NCBI GenBank assembly: GCA_902779135.1 | Contig: CACZAR010000015.1 | Location: 1 to 55,337, forward strand | DNA: 55,337 nucleotides | Direction: 5' to 3' | Source: an uncultured Coriobacteriaceae bacterium | Lineage (GTDB): Bacteria > Actinomycetota > Coriobacteriia > Coriobacteriales > Eggerthellaceae | Part shown: positions 312 through 3,303 of the stretch, piece after piece | Position numbering within the stretch: position 1 is the stretch's first letter | Layout of the letters: the number at the start of each line of letters is the position of its first letter | Position numbers and translations under genes: made by a program | The notes under the pieces: model-generated | Told to the model about the DNA's origin: nothing | What the model saw: only the letters and a program-made list of their open reading frames with translations | The model's database searches: none

Positions 312-670
312 TGCGCTCTCTCGCTTGCTGCAAATTGGGGGGTTGGGAGCAGGTTTTCTCAGTTTTCTGTTGCAAATGCGAGGTTAGGAACAAATTACTC
401 GGACGCCGTTGAGAAAAGAGAGTCTGGAAACAGGGCATCCAGCTCACTGCAGCGATCATCTGTGGTCTTCGCATCAAATAGTTAGGAGTTAAAGGGTGTT
501 TTTTGCTCTTTAAGCCTTATGCCATCCTGGTTCGTGCCCGCATAAGCCATCTTTTCAAACTGAGTTGCCATAACGATAGGTTTACTATTTCTTTCCGAAA
601 AACTGAGACATGCTTTTCTACTGTGCGTACAAGCTATAGTTGCAAAATCGCTAAACAGAAGGAGGCTCTC

Positions 671-865
671 ATGGCTGAAGACATCAAGAAGAGCGAAATT
701 GAGGATGCAGCTTTGGAAACTGTCGCAGGTGGATGGGGTTCCGACGCGGACGCCGTGTGCCCGAAGTGCAAGAGCACGAAGGTTCACCTGTACTACGAGC
801 ATGACGAGCGCGCAGTCATGAAGTGCGATGCGTGTGGCAACCAGTTCGTCATCGGCGAGGACTAA
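671..865 (+). CDS. small peptide with double-glycine leader and zinc-ribbon-like core
   Basis: A 64-residue protein starting at the ATG just after a strong AAGGAGG site (656-664); a longer open frame from 503 lacks this signal. Residues 1-21 are acidic and helical and end in ALETVAGG, the pattern of double-glycine leader peptides that are cut by C39-type peptidase/ABC exporters (Nif11- or bacteriocin-like leaders). The remaining 43 residues contain CPKC and, 19 residues later, CDAC, a four-cysteine zinc-ribbon-like arrangement. No exporter, peptidase or modification enzyme lies next to it. It could be a secreted metal-binding peptide, a RiPP precursor, or an intracellular zinc-ribbon protein whose leader resemblance is accidental. 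The CDS is certain enough; the function is inferred. Confidence 0.75.
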   Translation: MAEDIKKSEIEDAALETVAGGWGSDADAVCPKCKSTKVHLYYEHDERAVMKCDACGNQFVIGED

Positions 866-1935: not shown

Positions 1936-3303
1936 ATGAACGTGACGAGGGAATACTCGAAGTTCGCCATCAACACGCATTTCGACGATTTGCCCGAAGA
2001 GGCAATCGAGAGATTCAAGATTCGTTTGCTTGACTCGATTGGCGTTATCGCCGCCAGCATGCATGCCGGTGGTATCGACGAGTGTGTCGACTTGTTCGGC
2101 GGCATCGGCGGCGCCGAAGAGGCGACGATCCTGTTCCATGGGGTCCGCCTTCCCGCAGACAAAGCCTCGCTCGTGAACAGCATGATGGCACGCTCGTTCG
2201 ATTACGAACCGGTTGGCGGGGAATTCGTCGACGGTACTGCGGGTGCGGCTCACATCAGCGGCAGCTCGATTCCCTGCATGCTGGCAATGGGCGAGCTGGT
2301 TCACGCATCGGGCAAGGATGCCATTGCCGCCACTGTACTCGGTGACGATCTGGCAACCCGCCTTCAGCAAGGTACCGGGTTTGCGTTCGACAAGGGCTGG
2401 GACAACACGGGCACGTTCAACGGTTTGGGTTGCACGGTGCTTGCCGCCAAATTGCTGGGGCTCAACGAAGAGCAGTGCGTAAATGCCCTTGGCATCGATA
2501 TCAACACCATTGGCTCGACGATGGACGGTGTCATCGACGGCGTGCTGGCCTTCAAGCTGCCCCACGGCTTGTCGGGAATGAACGCAATCATGTCTGCGCG
2601 CATGGCGCAGCGCGGTTTCACAGGCACGAAAGACGCCCTGTGCGGCCTGCACGGCTACTTCGACCTCTTCGGAAACGAGAACAGCGACCCGTCGACGGTT
2701 CTCAGCAATCTGGGTAAACGCTTCTACACTGATAGCGAGATCAAGCCGTGGCCGTCATGTCGCATCACGCATGCGCCCATCCAGGCTGTGCTCGAGTTGA
2801 AGCGGGAGCATGGGTTCAGCGCGGATGACGTCGAGCGCATCACGGTGACGCTCCAACAGGGAAACGGCAGCCTCGTCGACTTCCCGTACGTGCCTGGGCT
2901 CGAGATTCCGAACTTCAACTTGCGATTCCTGCTCGCGTTGGCGCTTTCGAAGGGTGCAGTTGTGCCCAGATATTTCGAGGACGAATACCAAAACGATCCC
3001 GAAATCGTGCGCATCGCCACGAAGCTCGTCGATGTCGCGTACAGCGCCGACTTGAAGAACCTGTTCTCGGCAGAGGTGAAGCTCGATCTTGCTGATGGCC
3101 GATCGGTGTCCACGTTCGTGCCGCAACCGAAGGGCAACATGGCGTTCGACCCGCTCACGCATGACGAACTCATGCAGAAGTACTACACGAACATGGAGTA
3201 CAGCGGTGTGGTTTCGCGCGAGCGTGCGGATGAGATTGCGGACGCGGTCGAGCGTTTCGAGGAAATCGAGGACATCAACGACTTCGTCGCTTTGATGCGC
3301 TAG
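1936..3303 (+). CDS. MmgE/PrpD family protein (2-methylcitrate dehydratase-like)
   Basis: 455 residues, full length for the MmgE/PrpD fold, which includes 2-methylcitrate dehydratase, cis-aconitate decarboxylase and iminodisuccinate epimerase. Recognisable parts are the N-terminal helical block with LLDSIGVIAA, the AHISGSSIP segment, the FNGLGCTVLAAKLLGL segment, and the C-terminal domain beginning at about residue 275 (KPWPSCRITHAPIQA). The start at 1936 is preceded by an ACGAGG site; the longer frame from 1882 has no signal. No citrate-synthase or lyase genes of a methylcitrate cycle are nearby, so the substrate cannot be assigned. A terminator follows. The gene may share a divergent control region with the DUF169 gene. 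Confidence 0.85.
   Translation: MNVTREYSKFAINTHFDDLPEEAIERFKIRLLDSIGVIAASMHAGGIDECVDLFGGIGGAEEATILFHGVRLPADKASLVNSMMARSFDYEPVGGEFVDGTAGAAHISGSSIPCMLAMGELVHASGKDAIAATVLGDDLATRLQQGTGFAFDKGWDNTGTFNGLGCTVLAAKLLGLNEEQCVNALGIDINTIGSTMDGVIDGVLAFKLPHGLSGMNAIMSARMAQRGFTGTKDALCGLHGYFDLFGNENSDPSTVLSNLGKRFYTDSEIKPWPSCRITHAPIQAVLELKREHGFSADDVERITVTLQQGNGSLVDFPYVPGLEIPNFNLRFLLALALSKGAVVPRYFEDEYQNDPEIVRIATKLVDVAYSADLKNLFSAEVKLDLADGRSVSTFVPQPKGNMAFDPLTHDELMQKYYTNMEYSGVVSRERADEIADAVERFEEIEDINDFVALMR

Follow-up and report, generated by a model that had tools for sequence, protein, structure and literature searches.

A double-glycine leader peptide with a zinc-ribbon-like core in an uncultured Coriobacteriaceae bacterium and the peptide family to which it belongs

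The window, that is the whole stretch of 55,337 nucleotides analysed here, is the entire contig C15 of the draft genome of an uncultured Coriobacteriaceae bacterium (2.17 Mb in 202 contigs). Judged from its sequence, the small peptide encoded at positions 671-865 is one member of a family of dozens of double-glycine (GG) peptides with zinc-ribbon cores, and the peptides of this set appear to have one promoter type and one peptide-exporter type in common. We consider it likely that the product is a stand-alone precursor under common regulation with its relatives, that it is cleaved and exported by a shared NHLP exporter, and that the core folds round a metal outside the cell.

The gene and its product

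The peptide is encoded on the forward strand by an intact ORF of 64 codons plus stop, the product being the leader MAEDIKKSEIEDAALETVAGG followed by the core WGSDADAVCPKCKSTKVHLYYEHDERAVMKCDACGNQFVIGED. A 21-residue GG leader and a 43-residue core holding CPKC and CDAC had been described in the original prediction, and reading of the ORF agrees with that description exactly. The features of the locus are as follows.

671..865, + strand: GG-leader zinc-ribbon precursor peptide (ORF reading and family comparison)
671..733, + strand: leader, 21 aa, MAEDIKKSEIEDAALETVAGG, with I-12, L-7, V-4, G-2 and G-1 at C39-protease recognition positions
734..862, + strand: core, 43 aa, four-cysteine and zinc-ribbon-like (Pfam matches, profile matches to solved zinc ribbons, structure model)
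758..769, + strand: first knuckle CPKC, C30 and C33 (conservation in alignments A1 and A2)
824..835, + strand: second knuckle CDAC, C52 and C55 (conservation in alignments A1 and A2)
659..665, + strand: strong Shine-Dalgarno AAGGAGG (sequence read directly)
604..632, + strand: putative ECF-sigma promoter TGAGAC-N16-CGTACAA, its end 38 nt 5' of the start codon (genome motif counts)

Upstream of 671 the frame stays open to 482, and 671 is the likely start codon because AAGGAGG sits 5 nt 5' of the ATG. A scan with the sigma-70 consensus found no site 5' of the gene, an Rfam scan of the window returned tRNAs only, and no immunity gene was recognised adjoining the peptide. Further upstream lies a 30-nt inverted repeat (161-190/282-311), 90% complementary and with its arms 91 nt apart, of which no second copy was found when it was compared with all fetched loci.

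A family of GG peptides with zinc-ribbon cores

A search with the single peptide recovered weak paralogues in its own genome and genus, the in-frame genus matches consisting of a GG leader and a C..C-n-C..C core. In total 53 distinct GG-leader peptides with intact cores of this kind were collected from the fetched sequences by a pattern demanding GG and both cysteine pairs, features which in this set are consequently no test. Ten are encoded in this genome and the remainder in other Coriobacteriales, Erysipelotrichaceae and Lachnospiraceae. Proline follows the first cysteine in 46 of them, glycine follows the second in 38 and the fourth in 40, and the median spacer between the cysteine pairs is 17 residues. 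A profile built from an alignment of 13 family members (A1) matches 14 of 15 genus genomes and gives 20 matches in the own genome, non-zinc-ribbon GG peptides among them. Outside the order, an Erysipelotrichaceae MAG has two zinc-ribbon GG peptides in tandem (L137) and two Lachnospiraceae MAGs carry such peptides, with three close together at L139; an additional one, in one of these Lachnospiraceae genomes (L183), lies at most 1.5 kb from a C39 exporter.

Homologues sharing the leader and differing in the core, for which a search had been proposed, therefore exist in the own genome and in related genomes. Homologues that carry a fused cytosolic domain or have no GG leader, named beforehand as evidence against the prediction, were absent among the convincing matches; the leaderless matches are weak generic zinc ribbons, namely a ribosomal-protein-like frame in G092, an order-level match (E 0.0099), and short archaeal matches. 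Scans of genome contigs, viral contigs, phages and plasmids gave no close homologue of the window peptide, and no close orthologue was found, the 14 genus relatives included.

Since paralogues in the same genome show both parts, leader and core are not a random pairing. The combined motif, a C39-type GG leader with C..C-n-C..C after it, has one instance in the real window and none in 100 Markov-shuffled windows. A leader arising by chance had been considered as a candidate and is rejected by the family, the exporters and the promoter, together with the count of zero in the shuffles.

The leader and its relation to Nif11

In most paralogues the leader is Nif11-like and about 45-50 residues long; five of the 13 profile members match PF07862, and several genus relatives score above the TIGR03798 cut-off. 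The window peptide was not listed against TIGR03798 in NCBIfam at E values up to 10, PF07862 is not among its Pfam matches and, as it matches no Nif11 model, it is not classed as a Nif11 member. Its leader is without the N-terminal half of the Nif11 domain and retains the portion read by the C39 protease. For the C39 protease LahT150, the last 13 leader residues have been reported to suffice, with V-4, L-7 and L-12 packed in pockets (PMC6363468). The features expected of a C39 substrate (GG or GA/GS at -2/-1 and hydrophobic residues at -4, -7 and -12) are all present in the window peptide. Among 34 zinc-ribbon leaders, position -12 is L, I or V in 34, -7 is L in 32 and -4 is I or V in 34, and these positions are similarly conserved in 63 leaders with other cores; the selection pattern itself demanded hydrophobic residues there, so that what can be learned here is only that L, I and V are preferred.

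Related genomes also encode short GG leaders, of 27 aa (L167), 38 aa (L180) and 25 aa (G076), the first two behind related promoters, which suggests that the short leader is a working form. The peptides of L167 and L180 (G004:C14 and G014:C160) stand behind the same promoter type; their cores end in HTFRR and make up a second core family of the presumed regulon.

Exporters

The original prediction noted that no exporter adjoins the gene, and the genome bears this out, Peptidase_C39 (PF03412) being matched in two places only, both on contig C2. This answers the proposed search of the rest of the genome for C39-peptidase ABC transporters and, given these transporters and the homologues described above, a shared exporter, as suggested earlier, is the straightforward interpretation. 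The two C39 proteins score 932.9 and 931.1 against TIGR03796 (cut-off 853.3) and their TIGR03797 partners 712.9 and 731.5 (cut-off 709.4). Each module consists of an ECF sigma gene, a partial NHLP HlyD-like gene and the TIGR03796 and TIGR03797 subunits, and by these matches both are complete NHLP-type export modules. A precursor gene adjoining the exporter, as is expected of an NHLP system, is found for a paralogue at module 2; the window gene lies on a different contig. Across 15 genus genomes the numbers of peptide (A1) matches and TIGR03796 matches are correlated (Spearman 0.82, p 0.0002, uncorrected for kinship and genome size), and the single genome without any such peptide is also without the exporter. 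The three Firmicutes genomes, those of the Erysipelotrichaceae and Lachnospiraceae MAGs, encode full-length TIGR03796-like exporters scoring 837-845, slightly below the cut-off of 853.3.

Between NHLP module 2 and its zinc-ribbon GG peptide sits an MGT-family glycosyltransferase (L014:16809-17990 on contig C2; TIGR01426, 294 bits against 260), which might be a tailoring or a self-protection enzyme.

A putative common promoter type

Comparison of upstream regions revealed that TGAAAC-N16/17-CGTATAAT is common to several peptide genes of the genome, a motif that we take to resemble SigW-type ECF promoters. The pattern TGARAC-N15-17-CGTAYAA occurs eight times in the 2.17-Mb genome, against none in the reversed control and about 0.4 expected from composition, and seven of the eight sites, 604-632 included, sit 38-55 nt 5' of GG-leader peptide starts. 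The R and Y positions were picked partly to suit the window site, whose own match is therefore not independent and, because five of the seven peptide-linked sites had suggested the pattern, a binomial probability for the coincidence was set aside. The genus holds 27 pattern sites against two in the control, 19 of which lie 38-100 nt 5' of GG-leader starts; four others precede a small conserved protein with copies near module 2 and on the exporter contig G002:C99. Independent support comes from the remaining sites of the exact TGAGAC/CGTACAA variant: all four other sites in the genus are 5' of GG-leader peptides, two of the four being near-identical copies from related genomes. Allowing one mismatch gives 18 sites in the own genome against six in the control, the peptide of C102 being among the additions.

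A search at E 1e-8 finds four sigma-70 genes in the genome, two of them in the NHLP modules, a third housekeeping-like with 511 residues, and a fourth on C29. Exact promoter matches were absent 5' of the sigma genes of either module. An NHLP-linked sigma factor is the likely reader of the ECF-type promoter.

A small conserved protein with the motif SFREALL (or the similar SFRDELL) and a C-terminal LEDADLEMLAAAEG-like segment adjoins both NHLP modules (L013:9913-10146 and L053 about 2890-3156, contig C2) and occurs also at L122, L172, L176 and L178, several copies standing behind the ECF-type promoter. It has no Pfam match. Counted back from AAA, its LEDADLEMLAAAEG-like segment carries L at -12, -7 and -4 and resembles a leader with AA for GG.

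The core and its putative metal site

Known zinc ribbons act inside the cell, where they bind nucleic acids and proteins. Zn_ribbon_IS1595 is the best Pfam match of the core (24.9 bits, slightly below the cut-off of 25.4), and most of the solved structures picked up by the profile are zinc ribbons, those of ribosomal proteins, TFIIS and RNA polymerase subunits. In A1, C30 is invariant and C33 at least 90% conserved, both are invariant in A2, and C52 and C55 are invariant in the two alignments. AlphaFold2 predictions on nine sequences gave three strands, with a block pLDDT of 78-86 for residues 31-60 and low confidence in the leader; the structure model has a mean pLDDT of 65 and about 83 in the core. 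The hallmarks of a zinc ribbon, two CxxC knuckles at ribbon spacing and three beta strands, can accordingly be seen in the sequence and in the model. The best Foldseek matches include eIF2-beta-type, TFIIS and NrdR zinc ribbons, but none reaches significance (lowest E value 0.034), which is no surprise with a core of 43 residues.

In three paralogues of the same genome a Cys-His form replaces the first cysteine pair:

L121:2856-3149: GG-leader peptide with CEPGQH
L121:6311-6631: GG-leader peptide with CPDGQRH
L047:6323-6652: GG-leader peptide with CPKGGKH

As such a replacement is typical of metal ligands, these swaps favour a metal site over a thioether site.

Alternative explanations

The thioether site belongs to the best-surviving alternative, a RiPP precursor whose four cysteines are crosslinked or otherwise modified, for instance by a radical-SAM/SPASM enzyme acting in trans, the zinc-ribbon look being incidental or a scaffold. 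Nif11 leaders normally work for modification enzymes. The region 3' of module 2 holds, after the glycosyltransferase, a zinc-ribbon GG peptide directly 5' of a radical-SAM enzyme with SPASM-type and peptide-maturase family matches, and further GG-leader peptides of the genome have radical-SAM neighbours (C26, C27, C30 and C55). Beside the window gene, however, no modification enzyme was recognised (translations inspected by eye, the contig beginning 670 bases upstream so that the upstream side is barely visible), and by eye most of the zinc-ribbon paralogue neighbourhoods inspected (C13, C50, C58, C100 and C102) are also without one, as are the Erysipelotrichaceae and Lachnospiraceae loci L137-L139. 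The window leader, moreover, has lost the Nif11 portion to which enzymes of this kind would presumably bind, and the knuckle spacing, the CPxCG and CxxCG motifs and the Cys-to-His variants suit metal sites better, which makes modification of this kind rather unlikely. Beside GG-leader peptides and radical-SAM genes a family of proteins of 330-342 aa recurs (L120:2712-3716, L120:5648-6676 and L121:3332-4324), and the two members scanned against Pfam gave no match.

It is less probable still that the product is an intracellular zinc-ribbon protein that is not exported, its GG segment being a remnant or a product of chance. Zinc ribbons are usually cytosolic, the solved structures matched by the profile are those of transcription and ribosomal zinc ribbons, and the leader is short; yet GG and positions -12, -7 and -4 have been kept intact, no part of the family is more constant than this leader, the promoter is common to exporter-linked peptides, and matching exporters are present in the genome. 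Decay of a Nif11-leader peptide gene into a non-functional copy minus the N-terminal half of its leader, to which the short leader and the lack of an orthologue in 14 genus relatives could point, is the least probable of all, as promoter variant, Shine-Dalgarno, start, frame, C39 contacts and all four cysteines are intact and other GG peptides with short leaders exist, two of them behind related promoters.

The preferred reading is thus that of an exported, metal-binding peptide. Leader, core motif, family, exporters and common promoter sequence are evident in the DNA, and from them we infer cleavage and export, the binding of a metal, the sigma factor involved and the role. An NHLP-linked ECF sigma factor would transcribe the gene from the promoter at 604-632, and one of the two NHLP exporters of C2 would recognise the 21-residue leader via I-12, L-7 and V-4, its C39 domain cutting after GG. 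The 43-residue core would then be exported, leaving the cell unfolded or metal-free, and would fold round one metal ion, probably zinc, with the four cysteines as ligands, to give a small mini-protein stable in the reducing gut. In the low-redox gut disulfides would be reduced, and a secreted mini-protein could instead be held together by a zinc-thiolate site. From the exporter type, one may guess at a role between bacteria, in interference or signalling.

Relation to known systems

Class II unmodified double-glycine bacteriocins, such as the pediocin-like ones, combine a short GG leader and a C39 exporter with a core stabilised by disulfides. The window peptide resembles them in the short GG leader, the C39 exporter and a possibly unmodified core, but has a putative four-cysteine metal site instead of disulfides and no recognised immunity gene beside it. 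With the zinc ribbons of transposases and of TFIIS/RPB9 (PF12760, PF01096) it shares two CxxC knuckles, zinc-ribbon spacing and a three-stranded model, whereas here the predicted mature peptide consists of nothing but the ribbon, and an export leader precedes it.

The Nif11-derived peptides (N11P, TIGR03798) and the NHLP systems (TIGR03794/03796/03797; PMC2887384) have the GG leader type of the paralogues, form large paralogous families in which the core varies, and use exporter modules of the same families as those in this genome. They differ in that their peptides form heterocycles or lanthionines in place of a zinc-ribbon core, that most genes here stand alone, without exporter or modification enzyme, and that the window leader keeps the C-terminal part only, with no TIGR03798 match. 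In the lah system of Lachnospiraceae C6A11 (PMC6363468) one C39 exporter-protease, LahT, likewise serves many precursors, whose leaders are conserved and whose cores vary, and recognises them through residues -4, -7 and -12; the lah precursors are clustered with the transporter, whereas the genes described here lie scattered, and what connects them is a promoter motif. Searches of largely open-access papers yielded no description of Nif11 or double-glycine leaders joined to zinc ribbons, the part of Haft et al. 2010 (PMC2887384) consulted mentions zinc for a cyclodehydratase only, and zinc-ribbon cores on GG export leaders are seemingly an undescribed set.

Significance

It is possible, though we put this forward tentatively, that gut anaerobes secrete a large and diversifying set of metal-clamped mini-proteins, scattered zinc ribbons with export leaders that would be co-induced by exporter-linked ECF sigma factors and in which zinc-thiolate knuckles would take the stabilising part that disulfides have in oxidising surroundings. 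If this is true, zinc ribbons behind an export leader, in dozens of variants, would constitute a new class of secreted mini-protein spanning Coriobacteriales, Erysipelotrichaceae and Lachnospiraceae. A common ECF-type promoter can tie stand-alone precursor genes to a far-off exporter, and may thus offer a practical route to orphan peptides in fragmented genomes.
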